This document shows, piece by piece, positions 1,796 through 13,877 of a stretch of DNA of 28,351 bases. The position numbers were made by a program, and so were the translations under genes. A model generated the notes under the pieces. It saw only the letters and a program-made list of their open reading frames with translations. It did no database searches and had not been told where the DNA came from. The DNA is taken from IMG/VR virus record IMGVR_UViG_3300044951_001627, positions 1 through 28,351 of that record. One strand, 5' to 3'. Origin of the DNA: a virus. Position 1 is the stretch's first letter. Each line of letters starts with the position of its first letter.

Positions 1796-1802
1796 GTTGG
1801 GG
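1796..1802 (-). promoter_or_regulatory. start-proximal CCCCAAC motif of the endolysin gene
   Basis: The minus strand reads CCCCAAC immediately before the ATG at 1795, with no spacer and no Shine-Dalgarno sequence upstream. It is one of eight copies in the window and probably a translation-start signal; the function is inferred. Confidence 0.5.
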
Positions 1803-1816
1803 ACACCGACACTTGT

Positions 1817-2014
1817 TCACTTCTTCTTCTTGGCAACGTTTTTCTTAACATCTTTCTTCACCCTGGCCCTGCCCGTTCCGGACACAGGCAGGCCGCCACT
1901 ATCCCCATACTTCTTAACACCATTCTGCACTATTAGTCGGCACCTTTCCCAGAGTGATATATTATCCCGGCCGTCGTCCGCCTGCTTGAGGTAGTCGTGG
2001 ATCTTGCGGTTCAT
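1817..2014 (-). CDS. small basic protein of unknown function
   Basis: A 65-residue protein beginning MNRKIHDYLKQADDGRDN and ending in a strongly basic lysine-rich tail (KKDVKKNVAKKKK). Its ATG at 2014 overlaps the stop of the primase-helicase gene in an ATGA arrangement, which supports it as a real, translationally coupled gene. The endolysin gene begins 21 nt after its stop. No family is recognised. The basic tail would suit nucleic-acid or membrane-surface binding, but nothing in the sequence proves this. Confidence 0.65.
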   Translation of the reverse strand: MNRKIHDYLKQADDGRDNISLWERCRLIVQNGVKKYGDSGGLPVSGTGRARVKKDVKKNVAKKKK

Positions 2015-4278
2015 TTTGTCTTGAGGATTGTTCGGGTGTCTTTGTCGAACTGGTACTCGTCCCAGTCCGGGCCGTCGTAGGCGCCGGAGTTAATCTCGGC
2101 ACCGGACTCGTCGCTGGCGATCGGTCCGGACGGGACGTCGAGCCACTTCTTGTCCTTGCCACCCTTGGCGGCGGCGGCGACGAGTGACTTGGTGAGGAGC
2201 ATCTCCTCGACCATGTGAGAGAACTCGCCTGGGCCGATGGACCGTAGCAGGGCGGGCAGCTCGCCTCGCCGGCGGTACAGTCCGGACTTGGCGTTCTTGC
2301 CTTCGGCCGAGTACGGATGACCGTTGCGTGCAGCCAACTTGACGGAGGCGAGCAGCCACTCCCGTCGCTCGACGAAGTTGACGTCATTGAACTTATCCCT
2401 GGCGGTGACGTCGACGAGCAGGCCGGACTCGGTACGCAACAGCGTACGCTCGCCGTCGTACATCTCCGGGTTGTTGGCCTTGATGACGGCCATCTTCCAC
2501 ATGTGTCCCTTCTTGGGTACCATGTTCAAGCCCTTCATGCGACGGTCGTAGTCGGAGCAATGCCAGATGCCTAGGACGTAGCGGAAGGCCGCCGGCAGGG
2601 CGGAGCTACCGCGGATCGCGGCCTTCATCATCTCGGCGTTGCGGATGGGTTCGTCGCCCTGCTTGCGGATGTGGTGAGGCACGATGAGGGCGGCACCTAG
2701 CTCGCCGCAGACCTGGGATGCGACACGGGCAAACTCGTTGATGACCGTGGCGCTGTTCTCCTCGCCGTGCAGGACGCTGTTCAAGGTGTCGATGACGACG
2801 AGCTGCAGGTTTGGGATCTGCTTGAGCAGGGCGAAGAACTCGAGCCACTTACGGGAGGGCCTGGACTCCTGGGTGCGTGGGTCTTTCTCGACGAGGGAGA
2901 ACGAGCCGCCGGAGTTAATGGTGGGCAGGATGACGAGGTCGTCACCGGCCTCTCGCCGGCGGCTGCCGTCTGGGTCCATGTCGGCGAGGCGGATGTGCAG
3001 CTCGTCCTTGTCGTCCTCGGTGGTGAGGATGACGACGGCACCCTTACGCATGACGGGCATCCCGCCCCATGTGTCGCCGTCACGCTTGGCCGCCACCTTG
3101 AGGGCGAGGTCCAGCATGAGGAAGGTCTTGCCGGCGCCGCCTTCGGCGACGAGCAGGCCGTGCTTCGACGCCAGCACCAGCTTGTCGACGAGGAACTGGC
3201 GGGCCGGGCGGTCGCCCATGGACCAGCGGTGGGCGGCCCAGACGGCCAAGCCCTGGCCCTGCTCGAGGATAGGCTTCTCCGGCTCCGGCATAGGGCCGTG
3301 GGTGGCGATGTCGTTACGCAGTAGGCCCTGCCACTCGGTGTTGAAGCGGGCCTCCGGCCAAGGCGGATCCATGTGGGCCTGCATCCACCCGTAGGTGGAC
3401 AGGCGGGCCTGCTCGAGGTCCATCTTGCCGATGCGTGCGGTGTGGATGTAATGCCCGGCGACGCCGTTGAACGCCGACCACCGGGTGATGGCGCCCTCGG
3501 AGCCGGCCTTGACGTCCTCGGTCAGCAGGTCGGCGGCAGCCGGACCAGCCGGCGTGTTCATGGGGTCGGCCGGCTTCTCGACGATGGCCCACTCGCTGGC
3601 CGGCATGAGAGCGGCGGCCATGCTGGGGTTGGTGACTACGGACTGCCGATCGAAGCTCTCGACGACGACCGGACGGCGGACGCCGTTCTTCCCGTGGATA
3701 GATCCGGCAAGGCGGATGGGCTGATGCGCGCGGCCGTACGGGTTGCCGTCGACGCCTAGCCCGAACTGGATGTCGGCCCCGGCCTTGCGTGCGATGGCGT
3801 CGCGGATGGCAACGACCTCGGCGACGGTGACGTCGTAAATCTGCCAGTAGGCGTGCCGCTTGGCGGTGCCTTCATCTGTGGTGCCGCCGGACAGCACGAC
3901 CATGGCGGGCTTGCCGAAGTGCTGCTCGACGAAGTTGAGCTTGGCCTGGGTGTCGCCGGTATCGAAGTCGGCGCAGATAGTTTTGAATACGTCGCAGTTC
4001 TCGGCCGTGCCACGCTCGTCCTTAAGGGTGCAAGGCACGATGAAGGTGGCGACGTCGTGCTGTCCCCACCGGGTGGCGTGGAAGATCACCGATGACACGA
4101 AGCGTTCCCATCCAAGCGTCGCCGGCTCGAGGATGATGTCCTCACGGAAGATGCCCTCGCGGGTGGTGCCTTTCTCGCCGATGCCCCGGAGGCAGACGTA
4201 GCCCTTGGCGTCCTTGCCGAAGAGCATCTCGAGGTGGGACTCGACGGCGTCGTGGTCGATGTGAATAATGTCGGTCAT
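2011..4278 (-). CDS. primase-helicase: AEP-like primase fused to RepA-type helicase
   Basis: Predicted replication protein of 755 residues. The N-terminal part resembles archaeo-eukaryotic-type primases (prim-pol): an acidic pair D104-F-D106 in CADFDTGD, a GGTTDEGTAKRHAYW segment and a later RLAGSIHGKNG segment. The C-terminal half is a RecA-fold hexameric helicase of the RepA/AAA_25 type. It has Walker A GGAGKT at residues 380-385, Walker B LVVIDT with D497, and a VPHHIRKQ segment with H535-H536 followed by an AIRGSSA stretch. It would prime and unwind phage DNA for a host polymerase, since no phage polymerase is seen here. The ATG at 4278 directly follows a C6AAC motif. Confidence 0.85.
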   Translation of the reverse strand: MTDIIHIDHDAVESHLEMLFGKDAKGYVCLRGIGEKGTTREGIFREDIILEPATLGWERFVSSVIFHATRWGQHDVATFIVPCTLKDERGTAENCDVFKTICADFDTGDTQAKLNFVEQHFGKPAMVVLSGGTTDEGTAKRHAYWQIYDVTVAEVVAIRDAIARKAGADIQFGLGVDGNPYGRAHQPIRLAGSIHGKNGVRRPVVVESFDRQSVVTNPSMAAALMPASEWAIVEKPADPMNTPAGPAAADLLTEDVKAGSEGAITRWSAFNGVAGHYIHTARIGKMDLEQARLSTYGWMQAHMDPPWPEARFNTEWQGLLRNDIATHGPMPEPEKPILEQGQGLAVWAAHRWSMGDRPARQFLVDKLVLASKHGLLVAEGGAGKTFLMLDLALKVAAKRDGDTWGGMPVMRKGAVVILTTEDDKDELHIRLADMDPDGSRRREAGDDLVILPTINSGGSFSLVEKDPRTQESRPSRKWLEFFALLKQIPNLQLVVIDTLNSVLHGEENSATVINEFARVASQVCGELGAALIVPHHIRKQGDEPIRNAEMMKAAIRGSSALPAAFRYVLGIWHCSDYDRRMKGLNMVPKKGHMWKMAVIKANNPEMYDGERTLLRTESGLLVDVTARDKFNDVNFVERREWLLASVKLAARNGHPYSAEGKNAKSGLYRRRGELPALLRSIGPGEFSHMVEEMLLTKSLVAAAAKGGKDKKWLDVPSGPIASDESGAEINSGAYDGPDWDEYQFDKDTRTILKTK

Positions 4279-4311
4279 GTTGGGGGGTGTTAGTCCTGGC
4301 TGTTGGGGTGC
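4279..4311 (-). promoter_or_regulatory. intergenic leader with two C-tract-AAC copies
   Basis: The 33-nt gap before the primase-helicase carries two related minus-strand copies. CCCCAAC lies at 4302-4308 and CCCCCCAAC at 4279-4287, the latter touching the ATG at 4278. No Shine-Dalgarno sequence is present. This is the only gap in the window where the motif is doubled. Confidence 0.5.
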
Positions 4312-4878
4312 CTAGGTCAACTCCACAATCTCGCCACGGGCGGCCGCATCCTCGGCGACGGCCCGGGCAACCTCGTCGTCAAACTGACGCATCTCGTCTG
4401 GCGGGACGACGAAGCTCTGCCGCTCGGCTCCTCGGAAGTACTGCAGCCGGTCCGGTCTGATGACCTCGGCCCTGCCGGCCCAGCCCATGAAGGCGATGGC
4501 CCTGGCGTGGTAGTCGACGTGCATAAGGACGAAGACCTTGACGTCCTCCTTGGTGGTCATCACGCCGCCGATGAGGTAAGCCGGGACAAGCAGGTGCGGG
4601 TTGGGATGGTGGCTGGCCTTAACTTCGATTGACTCCCCATTGGGGGAGATGAAGTCGACCGACCCAGAGCGTGCCTCGATGGTGTCGTCACGCTCCATGC
4701 CGAAAAGCCGGGCGAAGCCGATCTCACCGAGCAGCCCGACCAGGTCGGTGACCTGGCCCGACTGCCGGCCGACCTTGCGGTCGCAGATGCCAGCAGCTCG
4801 CGACACGTCGTGGCGTGCGGCTGCTTCGGCTTCGGCGTGGACCATGACGTGTTCCGGAAGCTTGATGACGAGCTTCAC
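4312..4878 (-). CDS. PD-(D/E)XK-fold nuclease
   Basis: A 188-residue protein with a complete-looking restriction-endonuclease-like active site: E52 in LLGEIGFARLFG, D75 in SGSVDFIS, and E85-V-K87 in ESIEVKASH. This is the usual E...D...ExK layout of the fold. The following strands (LLVPAYLIGGV, KVFVLMHVD) fit the core sheet. The GTG start at 4878 overlaps the upstream stop by 4 nt (GTGA). The gene ends in TAG, which confirms that TAG is read as stop in this genome. It could be a Holliday-junction resolvase, a nicking enzyme or a host-DNA degrading nuclease. The location between recombination and replication genes favours a role in phage DNA processing. Confidence 0.75.
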   Translation of the reverse strand: MKLVIKLPEHVMVHAEAEAAARHDVSRAAGICDRKVGRQSGQVTDLVGLLGEIGFARLFGMERDDTIEARSGSVDFISPNGESIEVKASHHPNPHLLVPAYLIGGVMTTKEDVKVFVLMHVDYHARAIAFMGWAGRAEVIRPDRLQYFRGAERQSFVVPPDEMRQFDDEVARAVAEDAAARGEIVELT

Positions 4879-5174
4879 AGGGAGTGAATAAAGATTGGGG
4901 TATGCGCCCCGACGTAGCTGCCGGTGACATTGAAGTTCATGTGTTCAATGGCATCCTCGTCGGACATGCCTTCGGCCATCAGCACTCGCACACAGGTGTC
5001 ATACTCGTAGATGACCCGGATAGGGCTGAAGTCGGTGATGCCCACGATGGCGGCGTCGAAGCCGTCGGCGGTGAGCGTCTCATCATCCATATCTTCAAGG
5101 ATCTCGGTGAGTCGTTTGCGGTTCTCTTTAGCCAGCTTCTTGAGGTGGCTCTTCTCGGTTTTGTGGATTTTCAT
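4875..5174 (-). CDS. conserved phage protein of unknown function
   Basis: A 99-residue acidic protein starting at the ATG at 5174, which directly follows CCCCAAC. It has a charged helical N-terminus (KTEKSHLKKLAKENRKRL) followed by a compact domain with DGFDAAIVGI, RVIYEYDTCVRVL, SDEDAIEHMNFN and a terminal GAHTPIFI. From memory, similar short proteins with this FDxAIxG...YxYD...EDAxEHxxFN...TPIF order occur in many phage early regions, but I cannot name a function. It sits between two nuclease genes and overlaps the downstream one by 4 nt, suggesting joint regulation. Confidence 0.75.
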   Translation of the reverse strand: MKIHKTEKSHLKKLAKENRKRLTEILEDMDDETLTADGFDAAIVGITDFSPIRVIYEYDTCVRVLMAEGMSDEDAIEHMNFNVTGSYVGAHTPIFIHSL

Positions 5175-5181
5175 GTTGGGG
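5175..5181 (-). promoter_or_regulatory. start-proximal CCCCAAC motif before the 99-residue protein
   Basis: The minus strand reads TTCCCCAAC directly before the ATG at 5174, in a gap of only 12 nt after the nuclease stop codon. There is no Shine-Dalgarno sequence in this gap. Confidence 0.5.
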
Positions 5182-5186
5182 AAGGG

Positions 5187-5966
5187 TCAGCGCAGCCAGC
5201 TAGGGGTGATGTCGGTCGATGGCTTGGCCGGCGTTGGCGTGCCGTGGCACCGCTTCTTGTAGTCGCAGAACTTGCACTTGAAATCATCAGCCCCGCGGCC
5301 GGCTTTGCCCATCTCCTCGGGGGTGGAGGACTTGACGATGCGGACGGCCCGATCGATGTAGCCCTGGCAGTCGCGAGCGTTGAACTTTACAATCTCAATC
5401 CAGACCTCACCGGTATCTCGGTTGATGGCCGTGAACAGGCACGACTCGATGTCGTGGTAGCCCATGTAGATCTGGACCTGGGCGTAGTAGGTTGGCTTAA
5501 ACTCCTTCAGCCCGTTGCGCTTGAAGTCGGAGAAGGTCTTCGACCCGAGGGCCTTGTTCTCCCACAGCATCGGGTACTTGATACCAGCGATGGCCGGGCC
5601 GCCGTGGATGACGCCGTCAAGGTGTCCCTTAAACTTGCCTTCGGCGTCGCTCATGGCGATCTGCCGGCCGTCCTCCGTGTGCGTCTGCAGATCGAAGCCG
5701 GCGAGCTTCATGTACTGGGACATGCGTTCCTCGCCGTCATGCCCCATGTCGAACATGCGGAGGGTGTTGCCACGGAAGCCGGCGCCTTCGTCCTTTGGCG
5801 TCATGTGGAACGAGTAGGCCAGCTGACGCTCGCACTCTCCGCCGATGGCGGAGGCTCCGAGGTACTGGCGTGGGACCTGTGCGGCCACCTTGGCCTGCAG
5901 GGTTTCGTCCATGAGTGCAATGACTTGGACGGTGATCGGGTCGGGTTGTGTTTCGGGTTTAAACAT
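5187..5966 (-). CDS. RecB/Cas4-like exonuclease with Fe-S cysteine set
   Basis: A 259-residue PD-(D/E)XK nuclease of the RecB/Cas4/AddB-like group. The visible catalytic residues are D117 in GHLDGVI and E136-N-K138 in WENKALG, with a later YYAQVQIYM helix that matches the family's QxxxY-type motif. Four cysteines, C45 in GGECERQLAY plus C231, C234 and C240 in CKFCDYKKRC, have the one-plus-three layout of the Fe-S cluster known in AddB and Cas4. It probably resects DNA ends together with the adjacent SF2 helicase. The ATG at 5966 lies 4 nt past the helicase stop. An ATG at 6008 would add 14 residues and overlap the helicase. Confidence 0.82.
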   Translation of the reverse strand: MFKPETQPDPITVQVIALMDETLQAKVAAQVPRQYLGASAIGGECERQLAYSFHMTPKDEGAGFRGNTLRMFDMGHDGEERMSQYMKLAGFDLQTHTEDGRQIAMSDAEGKFKGHLDGVIHGGPAIAGIKYPMLWENKALGSKTFSDFKRNGLKEFKPTYYAQVQIYMGYHDIESCLFTAINRDTGEVWIEIVKFNARDCQGYIDRAVRIVKSSTPEEMGKAGRGADDFKCKFCDYKKRCHGTPTPAKPSTDITPSWLR

Positions 5967-5970
5967 AAGA

Positions 5971-7638
5971 TCAGATAGCGAGGACCTTGGCCTTGACGTG
6001 GTTCTCATGCCACTTCCAAGTTAGCGCGCAGGCGGCGCGGTACTTCGTCATGCCGAAGGCGGCGATGCGCTGGACGGAGAGATGTTCGAGCTGCTTGTCG
6101 GTCGGAGGCTCGGTGATCCATCGCTTGCTCTTGCGGGCGGCGTCCTTGTCGCCGTGTTCCCGGAGGTAGTCGTCGGCCGAGGCGATCGCCTGGAGCCGGT
6201 CGTCGGTTACGGTGATGAGTGTGGCCGTGCCGTACCCCTCTCCCCCGCCGACGGCGTACTGCTTGCCGGCGTGCTGGACGACGCAGGCCCATGCGGTCAT
6301 GGCGGATGCGATGGTCACCATGCCGTCCCAGAATGACTCCCACTTAAAGGGGGACATCTCGAGGATCTCGACCTCGGTCAGCTGGAAGTTCTCGAGGGCG
6401 CCACGTTCCTCGGCTTCCTTCTGTCGGCGGGCTACGCCGTCGAAGATGTGGTCGCAGGCTGGGCAGACGGCGACGCCGAGCGGGACCTGCATGTCGCAGC
6501 TAGGGCATGGCTTAAGCTTGGCCGCACCCTTGATTGGTTCGAGTACGACCTCGGTATCGAGACACCCGTGGGTGAGGATGGAGTAACCAAAGTCGAGGAC
6601 GATGCAGTCGGACTTGACGACGCCTGGGTGCTTCTCCGGGTCGACCTTACGCAGGCCGCGTCCAATCATCTGGATCATGGTACTCTTGTAGCTACACGGC
6701 CGGAGCAGCAGCACGCATGACACGGTCTGGCAGTCGTAGCCCTCGGTGAGGACGGCGACGTTGATCAGCACCTGGGTACGGTCCTTCTCGAAGTCGGTCA
6801 GCGCGCGCTTGCGGGCGTTGTCTGAAAGTCCGCCGTGGACGATGTCGGCCTTCACGCCGGCGTCGCAAAAAGCCTGGGTCACATGCTCGGCGTGGTCCAC
6901 GGTCGAGCAGAAGACGACGGTCTTCCTGGTGCCGGCCTTGTCCTTCCACTCGGCGATGACCTTGCTGGTCACGGCGTCCTTGTCCATGATGGCCTCGACC
7001 TGGGCCATGTCGAAGTCGGCGACGGTCTTGCGTACGTTCGCCAGCTCTGACCGCAGGCCGCAGTCGATGACGAAGACGCGGGGGCGGACGAGGTTGCCAG
7101 CATCGATAAGCTCCTTGATGGAGATGACGTCGGCGACGTTGTCGAAGACCTGCTTAAGGGCTTTCTTGTCGGCCCGCTGGGGGGTGGCGGTTACGCCGAG
7201 GACCTTGACCTTCGGGTTCAGTTCCTTGGCCCGGTCAAGGATCCGCAGGTAGGAGTCGGCGGCGACGTGATGGCACTCGTCGATGACGATGAGGTCCATG
7301 GCCGGCATGGTGGCTAAGTTGTCCTCGCGGCACAGCGTCTGGACCATGGCGAAGGTGACGCCGTCGGACCACTTCTTGCGGTCGGCGGCATAGATGTCGG
7401 ACTGGGCCTCTGGGTCGAACCGCTTGTAGGTGGATCGGTTCTGGGCTACCAGTTCATCTCGGTGCTGAAGGACCAGCGAACGCATGGTGGCGCCGTCACG
7501 CTTGGCAAACTTGATCGCGGCCGAAAGCATGACGGTCTTGCCGGCGCCGGTAGGTGCGACGCCTAGCGTGTTACCCCTGTCAGCAAGGGCGTAGCATAGC
7601 CGGTGGACAAAGTCCGCCTGTCGTGGTCGGAGCTTCAT
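5971..7638 (-). CDS. SF2 DEAD/DEAH-box helicase with zinc ribbon
   Basis: ATP-dependent DNA helicase of superfamily 2 (ResIII-like), 555 residues. Motif I is GVAPTGAGKT ending at T35, motif II is DECHH at 120-124, motif III is GVTATPQR, and motif VI is QMIGRGLRK near 321-330. A four-cysteine ribbon, PCPSC...CPAC, follows near residues 376-396, and a roughly 150-residue C-terminal extension ends the protein. The gene is followed after 4 nt by the Cas4-like nuclease, which suggests a helicase-nuclease pair for recombination or end processing. The start at 7638 has no Shine-Dalgarno sequence and follows a hairpin-rich leader. Confidence 0.88.
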   Translation of the reverse strand: MKLRPRQADFVHRLCYALADRGNTLGVAPTGAGKTVMLSAAIKFAKRDGATMRSLVLQHRDELVAQNRSTYKRFDPEAQSDIYAADRKKWSDGVTFAMVQTLCREDNLATMPAMDLIVIDECHHVAADSYLRILDRAKELNPKVKVLGVTATPQRADKKALKQVFDNVADVISIKELIDAGNLVRPRVFVIDCGLRSELANVRKTVADFDMAQVEAIMDKDAVTSKVIAEWKDKAGTRKTVVFCSTVDHAEHVTQAFCDAGVKADIVHGGLSDNARKRALTDFEKDRTQVLINVAVLTEGYDCQTVSCVLLLRPCSYKSTMIQMIGRGLRKVDPEKHPGVVKSDCIVLDFGYSILTHGCLDTEVVLEPIKGAAKLKPCPSCDMQVPLGVAVCPACDHIFDGVARRQKEAEERGALENFQLTEVEILEMSPFKWESFWDGMVTIASAMTAWACVVQHAGKQYAVGGGEGYGTATLITVTDDRLQAIASADDYLREHGDKDAARKSKRWITEPPTDKQLEHLSVQRIAAFGMTKYRAACALTWKWHENHVKAKVLAI

Positions 7639-7904
7639 CGGAAAAGGATGACCGCCCAGAGCCTCGCAAGAGGATAGGCGGCCGTTTTTTGTGGGACGCT
7701 AGAGCGTCCAAAAGAGGGGGGCGGGGAGAGAGGCAGCCCCAACAGCTGCATCATCCCTGCGAGCGTGGACGGAAGTGTCTGGACCGACGGCCAGGTTGTC
7801 GTCCCGCTCTCACCCTGTTTGTTAGAAAGAACAGACCAGCTCGACCTGCATGCCTTGCAACTTGATGCTGACGACCGTGCATTAAATGTCAGCAACATTC
7901 TCAT
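7635..7904 (-). CDS. uncertain small open frame before the helicase
   Basis: This open frame would encode 89 residues. Two features favour it: its stop overlaps the helicase ATG by 4 nt (ATGA), and CCCAAC stands 6 nt before its ATG. The middle part (GESGTTTWPSVQTLPSTL) has G/C-ending codons typical of the neighbouring genes. Against it, the first 30 residues are serine- and cysteine-rich and atypical, and several strong hairpins lie inside it. Another minus-strand frame gives a more protein-like stretch, VVSIKLQGMQVELVCSF followed by a stop, but it has no usable start codon. The region may instead be non-coding. Confidence 0.3.
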   Translation of the reverse strand: MRMLLTFNARSSASSCKACRSSWSVLSNKQGESGTTTWPSVQTLPSTLAGMMQLLGLPLSPPPSFGRSSVPQKTAAYPLARLWAVILFR

Positions 7905-7958
7905 CGGTGGGTTGGGCAGGTCGAGGGTCTTGCGTGACGCCCCCTTAGAAGGGGACGT
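7639..7958 (-). other. hairpin-rich 300-bp leader between DUF669-like gene and helicase
   Basis: This is the longest stretch without a secure gene. Four inverted repeats are visible. Arms 7937-7945/7950-7958 form a 9-bp stem with a UCUA loop over the DUF669-like stop codon, and its one G-U pair forms only in the minus-strand RNA. Arms 7866-7872/7888-7894 are 7 bp long. Arms 7694-7699/7704-7709 form GGACGC...GCGTCC with a 4-nt loop. Arms 7652-7656/7677-7681 enclose an inner 4-bp stem. An mRNA-processing site, an attenuator, an ncRNA or a replication origin are all possible, and none is shown. Confidence 0.45.
7652..7690 (+). terminator. possible plus-strand intrinsic terminator
   Basis: On the plus strand, CCGCC (7652-7656) pairs with GGCGG (7677-7681) around an inner CCTC-GCAA-GAGG stem-loop. 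CCG and then six T (7685-7690) follow. The shape fits a Rho-independent terminator pointing right, yet no plus-strand gene ends here. It would stop antisense transcription of the helicase gene if it is real. Confidence 0.35.
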
Positions 7959-8553
7959 TGCCAGAAGCCGGCGGCTTGATCACCCAGTTAGGGGCGTTGC
8001 CGACCGACGGAGCGGGCGCGACGAAAGCCTGCGAGCGGGCTTCGGCCACGGCCTGCTGGCCGCCGATCAACTTCTGGTAGTCCTTAAAGCCCGACTTGGA
8101 AGCCGGGTTAGGGGACAGCCACTCGGCGACCTTGTTCTTGTCGGCGTACGCGGGGTCGGTGTTCTTCTCGACCTTGACCTTGATGGCGACGCGCTGGCCG
8201 TCCATGCCGGTCATGATGGCGAGCGTGTCCTTGCCGGCGAAGGCATTGTACGACGCCGGATCAGACGGCTTGAACCAGCCGGACGACTCGAAGATGCGGG
8301 TGATGGACGTGATGCCCATGCTGCGCCACTTCTCGCCGTTGCGGTCGTCCTTGATGTCGGGCAGCATGTCGAAGACCTTGCGGCCCTCGTAGTCGCCGCC
8401 GACGATCGTGAGCGTCACCGGGTAGTAGGTGCCGCCGGACGACTTGGACTGCTTCGCCGCGCCAACCGTGAGGATGGCCCAGGCGAGCGTGCCGTTGGGG
8501 ATGAGTTCGGGAGCCGAGCCGGCGCCGGAGTTGATAGAGAACGGATTTTCCAT
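7945..8553 (-). CDS. DUF669-like protein, probable single-strand DNA-binding partner
   Basis: A 202-residue protein whose core fits the DUF669 phage family. It begins with LIPNGTLAWAILTVG, then SGGTYYPVTLTIVGGDYEGRK, then a helical middle, then GKDTLAIMTGMDGQRVAIKV and YADKNKVAEWLSP. Members of this family usually neighbour Sak4-type recombination ATPases, as here. A single-strand DNA-binding OB-like role is inferred from that context and from the proline-rich flexible C-terminus ending PPASGNVPF. The ATG at 8553 follows a (CA)n-CC leader. Upstream in-frame starts would overlap the ATPase gene and give unconvincing arginine/proline-rich sequence, so I rejected them. Confidence 0.75.
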   Translation of the reverse strand: MENPFSINSGAGSAPELIPNGTLAWAILTVGAAKQSKSSGGTYYPVTLTIVGGDYEGRKVFDMLPDIKDDRNGEKWRSMGITSITRIFESSGWFKPSDPASYNAFAGKDTLAIMTGMDGQRVAIKVKVEKNTDPAYADKNKVAEWLSPNPASKSGFKDYQKLIGGQQAVAEARSQAFVAPAPSVGNAPNWVIKPPASGNVPF

Positions 8554-8582
8554 GGTGTGTGTGTGTTTCTGGGTGGGTGAGA

Positions 8583-9434
8583 TTACTTGGCCGCCGGCAG
8601 GGTGGTGACGACGGAGGTGTCGACGCGCTTGCCGGTGTGGATCTTCTTGATGAGGGCGCCGAGGTCCGGGGCTTCCAGCAGCTCGAGGCGGCCGGAGCGG
8701 TCCTTGGCGGGGTAGCCCCACGGGTTCTGCTGCTGGCAGCAGAAGGCACGGTAGAGCTGGCCGTCCTCAGTCTTGAAGTTCTGCAGGGTGATGACCTGGT
8801 CGAAGATACCCGGGAGTTCGCGGCCGGTCTTGGAACCTTCGACCTGCGGGTTCCAGCTGACACGCTTGAGGTCATCGACCTCTTGGTCGAGGATGCCCGA
8901 CACGACGATGGACTTGGGGCAATGCTGCAGGTGGGTCAGCCAGCGGATCATCTCCTGCCCGAGCAGGCCGTAGGCACCGCGGGTGTCCGGCTTGCCGTCC
9001 TTGTTGAACGTCTCCGGCTGGACCTTGGACCACTTGAAGCACTCGCGGGAAGCGACCGTGATGGAGTCGATGAAGATCGTCTCGTACTTATTAAGGTCGA
9101 TAGCGGCGAACGCCTTGACGACGGCTTCATAGACCGGCTTGCAGTAGGCGCCGTTGGCGTCGGACGGGTCGAAGCCGCCGATGTACAGGGCAAGCGCGCG
9201 GGCGATCTCCCACGGGTACTTGTTGTACTCTTGAGCTACGGCTCGGACGTCGATCACGTCGCCGGCCCAGTCCTGGATGGCGAGGGTGCCGGCCTCGAGG
9301 TCCACGAAGAGGGTGGTCTTCGGGTCGAGGGTGCGGGCCTGCGTGGTCTTGCCCACGCCGGCAGGGCCGAACAGGGCGATGTTGACTTTGGGGACGAGTT
9401 TGAGGCGATCGTCAGCCTTGATGATTTTGATCAT
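8583..9434 (-). CDS. Sak4/AAA_24-type RecA-like ATPase (recombination)
   Basis: A 283-residue RecA-fold ATPase of the phage Sak4/AAA_24 kind, which assists single-strand annealing and recombination. Walker A is GPAGVGKT (residues 23-30), a first acidic strand follows (LFVDLEAG), and Walker B is ETIFIDS with D123. The downstream PKSIVVSG and GRELPGIFDQVITLQ segments match the later strands of the fold. The ATG at 9434 is preceded by CCCCCAAC with a 3-nt spacer. The DUF669-like partner gene follows after 29 nt, a pairing seen in many temperate phages. Confidence 0.82.
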   Translation of the reverse strand: MIKIIKADDRLKLVPKVNIALFGPAGVGKTTQARTLDPKTTLFVDLEAGTLAIQDWAGDVIDVRAVAQEYNKYPWEIARALALYIGGFDPSDANGAYCKPVYEAVVKAFAAIDLNKYETIFIDSITVASRECFKWSKVQPETFNKDGKPDTRGAYGLLGQEMIRWLTHLQHCPKSIVVSGILDQEVDDLKRVSWNPQVEGSKTGRELPGIFDQVITLQNFKTEDGQLYRAFCCQQQNPWGYPAKDRSGRLELLEAPDLGALIKKIHTGKRVDTSVVTTLPAAK

Positions 9435-9437
9435 GGT

Positions 9438-9445
9438 GTTGGGGG
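9438..9445 (-). promoter_or_regulatory. CCCCCAAC motif before the Sak4-type ATPase
   Basis: The minus strand reads CCCCCAAC, then ACC, then the ATG at 9434. The whole intergenic gap is 15 nt and lacks a Shine-Dalgarno sequence. Confidence 0.5.
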
Positions 9446-9449
9446 AGAG

Positions 9450-9896
9450 TTAGGAGGCGAAGGTAAACTTGGGGTCGGAGTACTTGACGGTCCGGGCGTC
9501 GATCAGCTTGTCGAGGAGCTTCTCGTCGCGGACGGCGTTGAACGCCTTCTCGGGGACCGTGAACTTGATAGCGAAGAGACGCTCGACCTCATCGTAGGGC
9601 ATGGACTTGGCGATGGCCTTGAGCTTGTCGCTGTCCCAGTCGCGACGGGCGGTGATCTCGCCGGCGAGCTTTATGCCTTCAACCTCGAAGGTCATCTGGC
9701 CGTGGTTCTTCTCCATGCCCTGGAGGTGGGAGGTCAGCATCGCGTTGAAGCGCGACTGCAGTTCCTGTTGGATGACGTCCATCTGCTCCTTGGCGGAGTC
9801 GATGACGGTTTGGTGGACGACGACCGCCTCGCGGAGTTCCGCGATGGTCAGCTCGTTGACGGCTTTAGCAGCCGGCTTGGTCTTTTTGTTTTTCAT
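9450..9896 (-). CDS. phage early protein of unknown function, helical N-terminus
   Basis: A 148-residue protein starting at the ATG at 9896 after CCCCCAAC and a 4-nt spacer. A lysine-rich start (MKNKKTKPAAKA) leads into a long helix (ELTIAELREAVVVHQTVIDS to roughly residue 65), probably a coiled coil. A mixed domain follows, with IKLAGEITARRDWDSDKLKA, MPYDEVERLFAIKFTVPEK and a terminal DARTVKYSDPKFTF. From memory, the WDSDKLxxIA...FxIKFxVPEK...ARTVKYxD pattern recurs in phage recombination operons, but no function is known to me. A longer in-frame start would run through the regulator gene and look non-coding. Confidence 0.7.
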   Translation of the reverse strand: MKNKKTKPAAKAVNELTIAELREAVVVHQTVIDSAKEQMDVIQQELQSRFNAMLTSHLQGMEKNHGQMTFEVEGIKLAGEITARRDWDSDKLKAIAKSMPYDEVERLFAIKFTVPEKAFNAVRDEKLLDKLIDARTVKYSDPKFTFAS

Positions 9897-10155
9897 GTCG
9901 GTTGGGGGAAACTTCCTTGCCGGCGTTGGGAGCCGAGCGGAGGACAAAGGTGTTGAGGTCGAGCGGCCGGCGTTCGTGCTGCGCCAGATCCATAAGCTGG
10001 ACCAGACGCACGGCCGGGATGTTCTCACGCTCCATCCACTTCTCGATCGTCTTGACCGAGAGCTTGGTGCCACGGGCTTCAAGCCGACGATGCAGCTCGC
10101 CGCGACCACCGAAGTGGGCGACGAGTTTGCGAGTATCGATGCGGCTAGAGTTCAC
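9865..10155 (-). CDS. HTH transcriptional regulator, first gene of the leftward operon
   Basis: A 96-residue protein with a GTG start at 10155, directly preceded by CCCAAC. The first 55 residues form an HTH-like domain: LVAHFGGRGELHRRL, then GTKLSVKTIEKWMERENIPA as the turn and recognition helix, then VRLVQLMDLA. This looks like a Cro/Xre-type DNA-binding fold. It is the first leftward gene after the divergent region shared with the integrase, the usual place for a lysis-lysogeny switch regulator. The polar C-terminus overlaps the next gene by 32 nt. No second repressor candidate is visible near the integrase. Confidence 0.7.
   Translation of the reverse strand: MNSSRIDTRKLVAHFGGRGELHRRLEARGTKLSVKTIEKWMERENIPAVRLVQLMDLAQHERRPLDLNTFVLRSAPNAGKEVSPNRHEKQKDQAGC
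9901..9908 (-). promoter_or_regulatory. CCCCCAAC motif before the 148-residue early gene
   Basis: The minus strand reads CCCCCAAC, then CGAC, then the ATG at 9896. The motif lies inside the coding end of the regulator gene, so its presence there is not explained by intergenic base composition. Confidence 0.5.
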
Positions 10156-10161
10156 GTTGGG
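10156..10161 (-). promoter_or_regulatory. start-proximal CCCAAC motif of the HTH regulator
   Basis: The minus strand reads GTCCCAAC directly before the GTG at 10155. It helps select the GTG as the start, since no ATG is available near the front of the HTH domain. Confidence 0.45.
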
Positions 10162-10268
10162 ACCAGTTGGATGAGTAGAGTTCTGCCTACTTCATGTCGG
10201 TCGTCAACGCCTAAAAACATTTTTTTCTGATGCCTTGACTGTCCTCCAATATGTAGGGACTGTTACTG

Positions 10269-10275
10269 CCCCAAC
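10269..10275 (+). promoter_or_regulatory. start-proximal CCCCAAC motif of the integrase
   Basis: CCCCAAC ends exactly at the ATG at 10276 on the plus strand. The same motif precedes leftward genes, so it follows the direction of the gene and is not a strand composition effect. Confidence 0.5.
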
Positions 10276-11349
10276 ATGCCCAAGAATAACAACGGTCCCC
10301 GGCTCGACCTTAATGAAGCCGGCATCTACGAGATCCGCTGGACGGAGAACCGCCGCAGCAAACGCAAGTCCACAGGCACGGCGAACCACGCCGAAGCCCA
10401 GGCCACGCTTGGCCGACACCTACTTGGCATGAGCGAGCAGCACAAGCCCAGGCCGTGCAACGTCGCCGAGGTGCTGTCGACGTATCAGTCTGAACATGTC
10501 GACCACAAGGTGATCGCCAAGGAGCGGCAGGAAGGATGCATCGACGTGCTTACCGCCGGCCTTGGCAAGCTCGACGTGCAGCAGCTGACGCCGTCGGTAA
10601 TCATGGACTACCGCAAGCGCCGCAAGGCCGGCACGGTCAACGGTCACGTCGCCGGCGACAGCACGCTCCGCCGGGAACTGAACTGCCTCATCGCCGCCAT
10701 CAATCATGCGGCTAGGCATCGCCGCATCGCGCAAGCCGACGTGCCGCACATCGCCCTGCCGGACGCTCCGCCGCCGAAGGACTTGTGGTTGAATGAGGTC
10801 AAGCTCGACACCTTTGTGGCCGCCGCCGGCAAGCTCTTCACGGGCGAACGCATGTCTAGGCTTTACCGGTTCGTCGTGATCGCGTCGGAGACTGCGGCCC
10901 GAAAGACCAGCGTGCTGACGCTACGCTGGAAGCAGGTCGACCTCGCGGCCAGGCTGATCCACTACCAGAACGACGGCAACCAGCGGACCAAAAAACGCCG
11001 CGTGCCAGTACCGATGTCGGACCTGCTGTTCGACGTGCTGACCCGTGCGTACGTCGAACGCACGCAGGACGAGTGGGTGCTGGATACTCCGTACTCCATC
11101 CAACACCATTTTGAGATGCTGGTTAAAATGGTCGGAGCCGGCTTCGATGATGTCACGCCGCACACATTGCGTCACACCTGGGCTACGCAGGCCGCGCGCG
11201 CCGGCGTGCCGCTGTTCGAGATCGCTGGCGTTCTTGGCGATACCCTCGCGACGGTCATGCGCGTGTACGCCCACCATTGCCCCGACCACCTTCGCGGTGC
11301 CGTGAACTTCCGCGCCTCACGAAACGCATCGCAAGAGCTATTGCGATAA
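10276..11349 (+). CDS. int: tyrosine recombinase / phage integrase
   Basis: A 357-residue site-specific recombinase for integration and excision, the only clear plus-strand gene. After an arm-binding and core-binding N-terminal part, the catalytic domain shows R209 in ETAARKTSVL, the beta-hairpin lysine near residue 240 (RTKKRRVPVP), H296-x-x-R299 in PHTLRHTWAT and the nucleophile Y331 in RVYAHH. The position usually held by a second His or Trp is D322 in VLGDTLATVMRVY. A non-histidine at this place is known in some phage integrases. The ATG directly follows CCCCAAC, the same motif used on the other strand. No attP core could be recognised. Confidence 0.92.
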   Translation: MPKNNNGPRLDLNEAGIYEIRWTENRRSKRKSTGTANHAEAQATLGRHLLGMSEQHKPRPCNVAEVLSTYQSEHVDHKVIAKERQEGCIDVLTAGLGKLDVQQLTPSVIMDYRKRRKAGTVNGHVAGDSTLRRELNCLIAAINHAARHRRIAQADVPHIALPDAPPPKDLWLNEVKLDTFVAAAGKLFTGERMSRLYRFVVIASETAARKTSVLTLRWKQVDLAARLIHYQNDGNQRTKKRRVPVPMSDLLFDVLTRAYVERTQDEWVLDTPYSIQHHFEMLVKMVGAGFDDVTPHTLRHTWATQAARAGVPLFEIAGVLGDTLATVMRVYAHHCPDHLRGAVNFRASRNASQELLR

Positions 11350-13493: not shown

Positions 13494-13828
13494 CTAGCGC
13501 CACTTGCCCGTACGAAGGAGCAGGCCGATGACGCCGTAGTTTGCGAGGTCCGACCAGGAGTCGTTGATAGACTCGTTGTTCGCTTCGCCGTCACCCTTAA
13601 GCTCCTTTGTGAGGAGGTTGCGGATCGGCTGACCTTGTCCTGGGTGCGTACCATCACGCCCAGTTCGCCGTTGAGGCTGATGTTGCTGCTCCCGTAGTCC
13701 TGCTGCTTGCGATCCATGAGGAGGGCAAGGGGCAGGATGGCGCGGAGGTATTCCCGCCCCATCTCGGTCTTCAGACCAAGGTCGGAGTGCAGCTTGTCGG
13801 CCAGAACGTCGGTATCAATGTTGGGCAT
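13494..13828 (-). pseudogene. Nmad1/DUF1599-like gene with a one-base frameshift
   Basis: The first frame starts at the ATG at 13828 (MPNIDTDVLADKLHSDLG) and contains QQDYGSSNISLNGELGVMVR, then TQDKVSR. This is the conserved core of the phage DUF1599/Nmad1 family. Just after KVSR, near 13624-13630, the family pattern jumps to another frame that reads NLLTKELKGDGEANNESIND, SWSDLANYGVIGLLLRTGKW and R, then TAG at 13494. One base is missing between AGCCG and ATCCGC; restoring it gives KVSR-IRNLL. Nmad1 proteins are associated with modified phage nucleotides. The break could be a real loss of function or a sequencing indel. Confidence 0.65.
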
Positions 13829-13877
13829 TGTGCCTGCATAGTGGACCCGCCTATGCCGTGCCGTCAACAGGTTTCCC

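Follow-up and report, generated by a model that had tools for sequence, protein, structure and literature searches.

A conserved phage RNA carries a loop complementary to a short word at the start codons of a family of environmental phages

The window analysed here is the whole 28,351-base IMG/VR virus record IMGVR_UViG_3300044951_001627. It carries two elements that are the subject of this work: a short word, CCCAAC, located at or just ahead of many start codons, and a region with the features of a structured noncoding RNA. This region (positions 7944-7639) spans the interval from the stop of gene 7945-8553, which occupies the usual position of the single-stranded DNA-binding protein (SSB) and is named by that position only, to the start of a helicase gene (5971-7638; both on the minus strand). 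The minus-strand genes also include those for a Sak4-like ATPase, a Cas4-type exonuclease, a primase-helicase, the terminase small subunit and an internal virion protein; gene 9865-10155 is the first of a leftward operon, and an integrase gene (10276-11349) lies on the plus strand. Searches with two window proteins yielded about 140 related viral loci, which were compared with control loci from mostly proteobacterial genomes. Starts were assigned from a codon-usage model together with their conservation, and a start 5-60 nt after the preceding stop was classed as gapped. No close relative of the protein family of gene 9434 was found among the genome contigs of bacteria, where the best matches were proteobacterial proteins of at most 55% identity. 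The region 2011-9434 had no match among phage isolate records, in which the 4278 protein found distant matches alone, and a plasmid search gave only three matches (48-52% identity). That the host belongs to the Verrucomicrobiota is a guess.

A first-pass annotation of the window had described a run of three to six C followed by AAC, 0-6 nt before start codons on both strands. Using a regular expression on both strands, every copy was found at the distance described: immediately adjacent to the starts at 1795, 4278, 5174, 10155 (a GTG) and 10276 on the plus strand, and 3, 4 and 6 nt from 9434, 9896 and 7904, respectively. The window contains 21 copies, seven of which lie 0-6 nt before one of the 22 called starts, compared to 0.057 expected (Poisson P 4e-13). 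The doubled copy ahead of gene 4278 is real and recurs in many relatives. The motif is likewise conserved at the same starts in relatives with 70-99% protein identity, where it often reads TCCC(C)AAC, with ACC, CCACCGAC or no further letters between it and the ATG. The lack of a Shine-Dalgarno (SD) sequence at motif-bearing starts holds family-wide, and starts without the motif mostly overlap or abut the preceding gene, as had been proposed. Two points required revision. The copy at 9901-9908 does lie inside the upstream gene, but its exact AAC is not conserved, as a 97%-identical relative has CCCCCCACC instead. Position 7904 does not mark the start of a gene: the codon model leaves it uncalled, indels in relatives disrupt its frame, and the region belongs to the structured RNA.

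Across the family, the word was evaluated by a test that does not depend on gene calls, in which all 4096 hexamers were ranked by the occurrence within 20 nt of an ATG followed by at least 100 open codons. CCCAAC ranked first in the phage family (212/736, z=22), and the same test placed AAGGAG first in the control loci. Within 26 nt, CCCAAC preceded 36% of the gapped starts versus 1.3% in the controls; among overlapping starts the value was 6%. The distance between word and start peaks at 0 and 3 nt, with a tail to about 13 nt. Compared to shuffles within each leader, CCCAAC is enriched 5.5-fold (100 vs 18.3) and CCAACC 3.4-fold; CACCAC reaches 0.54-fold, AACCCC occurs 3 times against 18.5 expected, and ACCCCA is missing altogether against 18.7 expected. 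As CCCAAC is in such excess while ACCCCA is absent from the very same leaders, pure base composition was rejected as the cause. The excess persisted when balanced over 44 gene families (13.2 vs 2.87, sd 1.07). Thus, the signal is the ordered word CCCAAC(A) and not a C-tract alone. A control with the reversed pattern in whole genomes was discarded because CCCAACATG outnumbers its reverse in SD-using genomes as well, and a search for the exact leader strings elsewhere in IMG/VR returned mostly chance matches.

The leaders of the phage family share a distinct character. An SD core is present at 7.5% of the gapped starts in the phage family versus 83% in the control loci. Leaders are C/A-rich and depleted of G, and the depletion extends into the coding region, with 9.8% G in codons 2-5 compared to 29.5% later. 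Predicted folding around the start is weak (-7.5 vs -17.7 kcal/mol mid-gene). C occupies position -1 in 73% of the leaders and A position -3 in 50% (22% in controls); A is found at -6 in 54%, but also in 48% of the controls. These properties resemble Kozak-like, SD-independent initiation: in Flavobacterium johnsoniae and E. coli, initiation increases with A-3 and A-6 (PMC6847099), for non-SD genes from several phyla C immediately upstream of the start and C/A near -15 have been reported (PMC5397173), and some Verrucomicrobiota are SD-scarce (PMC10783764). The absence of an SD, the unfolded leader, A-3/A-6 and the C before the start are shared with these systems. In contrast to their loose base preference, the phages have an ordered word, which appears tied by lineage to the loop of a phage RNA. 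Judged by their sequence, the leaders would suit a host in which translation begins independently of SD pairing. In some cases the leader has grown into a series of CCCAA repeats; upstream of the orthologue of gene 7945-8553 in two relatives (L131, L156), these form telomere-like tandem arrays whose other DNA strand could form G-quadruplexes. Distant Sak4-like relatives (about 50% identity; L083, L076, L080) have ordinary SD sequences (GAGAGGA, GGAG), indicating that the start signal tracks lineage or host rather than the gene.

With the nearest relative, the region between the SSB-position gene and the helicase gene shares 98% identity over 240 nt, and with others 76-79%. When 32 sequences were aligned, 26 base pairs emerged, 21 of which show changes on both sides, with 95.4% of the cells paired. 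The covariation score was 0.601 versus 0.190 (sd 0.013) in shuffles, was reached by 0 of 500 shuffles, and dropped to at most 0.12 in slid versions of the alignment. Hence, the RNA secondary structure is conserved. A covariance model built from the alignment recovered the RNA across the family, including lineages in which the third arm is changed or missing, and gave 0 matches in the proteobacterial control loci. Like the phage structured RNAs in Rfam, this RNA is phage-encoded, multi-helix and well conserved; it differs in that no Rfam 15 family matched at E<=0.5, neither for the window region nor for RNAs of loop types A, B and C (L140, L156, L112). Leaving function aside, this RNA family is well supported, occupies a defined position and has not been catalogued; it represents the solid part of our findings. 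In RNAs of loop types B, C and D (L140, L150, L146, L156, L055), the second arm has GUCGG-UUCCAUU-CCGGC, which is similar to a tRNA T-arm with its 7-nt loop; RNAs of loop type A are without such an arm.

The third arm (P3) has the form GC-N3-UGUUGGG-N3-GC inside UGA...CCUCUC. Its loop, UGUUGGG, is the exact complement of CCCAACA, that is, of the start-site word extended by the first letter of AUG. Among the lineages with this loop (loop A; 26 distinct aligned sequences), the loop is unchanged while the stem varies, e.g. GCAGC/GCUGC, GCGAC/GUCGC, GUGAC/GUCAC, GCUUC/GAAGC and GCGGA/UCUGC. A scan of 2.9 million IMG/VR viral contigs with free stem letters returned 51 contigs with 13 distinct hairpins, and in all 51 contigs three of three further stem pairs were complementary. 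For six of the window starts, the duplexes predicted with UGUUGGGG range from -12.1 to -13.5 kcal/mol, the 1% quantile of the background being -11.5 kcal/mol. With the flanking G, eight contiguous pairs are predicted at 1795, 4278, 5174, 9434 and 10276 (-13.3 to -13.5 kcal/mol). Loop types A to D all retain UUGG, a YUNR letter pattern as described for the recognition loops of antisense RNAs (PMC4485353).

Table 1 Positions of the structured RNA and of the start-site words within the window
Position	Strand	Feature	Evidence
7639..7944	-	Structured noncoding RNA region between SSB-position gene and helicase gene	Conservation, covariation
7831..7933	-	5' long hairpin, then U-rich stretch (terminator-like); holds CCCAAC at 7911-7916	
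7709..7852	-	RNA core (model R1), three-way junction, covarying helices	
7728..7753	-	Putative recognition hairpin UGA-UGC-AGC-[UGUUGGG]-GCU-GCC-UCUC	
7738..7744	-	Invariant loop UGUUGGG, reverse complement of CCCAACA	
1796..1802	-	CCCCAAC, directly before ATG of transglycosylase-like gene 1358-1795	Conserved in relatives; predicted duplex with loop -13.3 kcal/mol
4279..4287	-	CCCCCCAAC, directly before ATG of AAA/DnaB-like primase-helicase gene 2011-4278	Predicted duplex -13.5 kcal/mol
4302..4308	-	CCCCAAC, second upstream copy of the 4278 gene	Regular expression; relatives
5175..5181	-	CCCCAAC, directly before ATG of gene 4875-5174	Predicted duplex -13.3 kcal/mol
9438..9445	-	CCCCCAAC, 3 nt before ATG of Sak4-like ATPase gene 8583-9434	Predicted duplex -13.4 kcal/mol
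9901..9908	-	CCCCCAAC, 4 nt before ATG of gene 9450-9896, inside upstream gene	Predicted duplex -12.1 kcal/mol
10156..10161	-	CCCAAC, directly before GTG of gene 9865-10155	Predicted duplex -10.7 kcal/mol
10269..10275	+	CCCCAAC, directly before ATG of integrase gene 10276-11349	Predicted duplex -13.4 kcal/mol
13820..13828	-	ATGCCCAAC, conserved ORF starting at 13828 with the word in codons 2-3; might be another target	

The leader word also varied with the loop type. At loop-A loci, CCCAAC occurred in 87 of 186 leaders (47%; 4.8-fold over shuffles) and CCCAACA in 36 of 186 (6.0-fold), with CCAAAC being depleted (0.4-fold). At loci with another loop or none, CCCAAC was found in 12 of 84 leaders (14%; 1.8-fold) and CCCAACA in 2 (0.7-fold); at these loci CCCAAA was enriched 3.6-fold and CCAAACC 6.2-fold. 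In the lineages with loop B (CCUUGGUUGGC), 3 of the 16 leaders contain CCAACCAA, compared to 4 of the 254 leaders elsewhere. This association of loop type and leader word across lineages is suggestive, but not proven.

For the motif, the first-pass annotation had considered a role in translation initiation, as a signal for processing or as the site of a regulator. A role at translation starts, exerted at the RNA level, is supported by the short intercistronic gaps, the lack of a link to promoter hexamers and the depletion of G into codons 2-5. The apparent RNA partner had been missed, and part of it (7904) had been taken for a possible gene. On balance, and judging from sequence complementarity, we lean towards a model in which the phage-encoded RNA pairs with the start-site words and thereby controls translation of many phage genes, including the integrase gene. 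According to this model, arm P3 would present UGUUGGG, flanked by G in the window, and the loop would form six to eight uninterrupted pairs with (C)CCCAACA; at starts that the motif directly adjoins, these would extend to the A of AUG. Such pairing would control the motif-bearing starts jointly. As it would cover or abut the AUG, masking of the starts is the simplest effect, so that repression would be the likeliest direction; activation is possible. The predicted targets are replication and recombination genes and the integrase, and the RNA could accordingly act in timing, in switching early genes or the integrase on and off, or in the choice between lysis and lysogeny. We infer the existence of the RNA as a transcript, the pairing of its loop with the leaders in vivo and an effect of this pairing on translation, together with the sign of that effect.

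Several observations weigh against this model. The helicase gene right behind the structured RNA lacks the motif, and the match of 6-8 nt is short, with GUUGGG occurring in 16S rRNA also. Leaders in the lineages with loop C (CCGUUGGU) are without ACCAACGG and still have some CCCAAC, and CCCAAC leaders were found in two other phage lineages (L276, L281) without a match to the RNA model, although these records are possibly partial. The link between loop and leader was spotted post hoc, and the leader percentages behind it (47% and 14%) are non-independent counts. The protein tree requires no more than two changes of loop A, leaving only two independent contrasts and a sign test without power.

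The motif could instead be the phage version of an SD-independent start context of the host, i.e. a Kozak-like, unstructured C/A leader with A-3/A-6 and C-1 that is read by the ribosome, while the RNA does something else. The scarcity of SD cores (7.5% vs 83%), the low G content of codons 2-5, the weak folding around the start and the base preferences (A-6 54%, A-3 50%, C-1 73%) all agree with this explanation, as do the C/A-rich leaders of lineages without loop A and the published A-3/A-6 effects (PMC6847099), C/A signals (PMC5397173) and SD-scarce Verrucomicrobiota (PMC10783764). However, composition fails to explain a word that is 5.5-fold enriched in leaders with zero ACCCCA, and CCCAAC is weak (1.8-fold) in sister lineages that have the same leader style and a different RNA loop. 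The exact match to an invariant loop would, moreover, become a coincidence. We take this explanation seriously, but regard it as rather unlikely.

A ribosomal partner would be an alternative source of pairing: the motif might bind GUUGGG of 16S rRNA, for example in the conserved GUUGGGUUAAGUCCC region, in place of SD pairing. GUUGGG indeed occurs three times in a Limnohabitans 16S rRNA, once within the GUUGGGUUAAGUCCC segment, and AACCCAAC is present in 28 leaders versus 2.6 in shuffles; yet tandem CCCAA repeats are enough to produce AACCCAAC. The letters 5' of CCCAAC are AA, CC, TT, CA or CT and thus give no consistent extension beyond the hexamer, CCCAAC is absent from the control loci of SD-using hosts, and the 16S segment in question is base-paired in known ribosomes, which makes this explanation extremely unlikely. 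We also regard it as very unlikely that the motif is a DNA element, either a promoter part or the operator of a transcription regulator. Promoter-like sequences do lie next to some copies (those of the integrase and of ORF 13828), and the 13828 promoter is surrounded by inverted repeats ATGTTGGGC..GCCCAACAT in a few relatives, but most copies reside in gaps of 12-33 nt within an operon, and leaders extend as CCCAA repeats. The promoter reading was rejected for most sites, because the -35-like TTGAC is no more frequent with the motif (14%) than without it (15.5%) and the -10-like TANNNT before it comes from the TAA stop (59% where a stop is adjacent, 5% otherwise).

Some further features were noted around individual starts. 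The ORF at 13828 begins with ATGCCCAACAT, and a TTGAC lies about 21 nt before a TATnnn box (13820-13870, minus strand; L089, L085, L115, L117, L120, L091, L107). Only 4-6 nt separate this box from the ATG, and the mRNA may thus be leaderless; the inverted repeats mentioned above extend across this promoter in several relatives. Upstream of the integrase gene (10190-10276), a TTGAC box is followed in relatives by an inverted repeat of the CCTACA-TGTAGG type, likely a repressor operator, and a similar repeat precedes the divergent gene 10155 in some of them. In several relatives (e.g. L015), the leader of the 1795 gene folds into GTCGGTG-TCCCAACC-CACCGAC directly before the ATG (z=-5.1), displaying CCCAAC in the hairpin loop; the window leader (1795-1830) folds differently. 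Two related phages carry clusters of seven (L059:2544-3190) and three (L140:16865-17096) tRNA genes.

The proposed arrangement has parallels in antisense and trans-acting RNAs with U-turn (YUNR) loops, such as plasmid copy-number RNAs and hok/sok (PMC4485353). Common to both are a structured RNA with an exposed YUNR-type loop, here UUGG, and the complementarity of this loop to the translation start region of the target. Unlike these RNAs, the phage loop matches, by sequence, many genes of one genome through a word of 6-8 nt, and unlike a cis-antisense RNA of the plasmid type, the region 7639-7944 is not located opposite its putative targets, but lies away from them and on the same strand as most. 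We know of no other phage RNA with a single loop matching a word that recurs at many start codons of the phage itself. More tentatively, and with slightly more doubt than confidence, the system might amount to a genome-wide translational code, in which one self-encoded RNA uses its invariant U-turn-type loop to address a common start-codon word in a non-SD host and switches replication, recombination and integrase genes together.

The leader analysis reveals a clear pattern of SD replacement in environmental phages. If the proposed pairing is true, a single short word common to many start sites would place many genes of the phage under the control of one of its RNAs, and an orthogonal translation switch would become available for bacteria that lack SD sequences.

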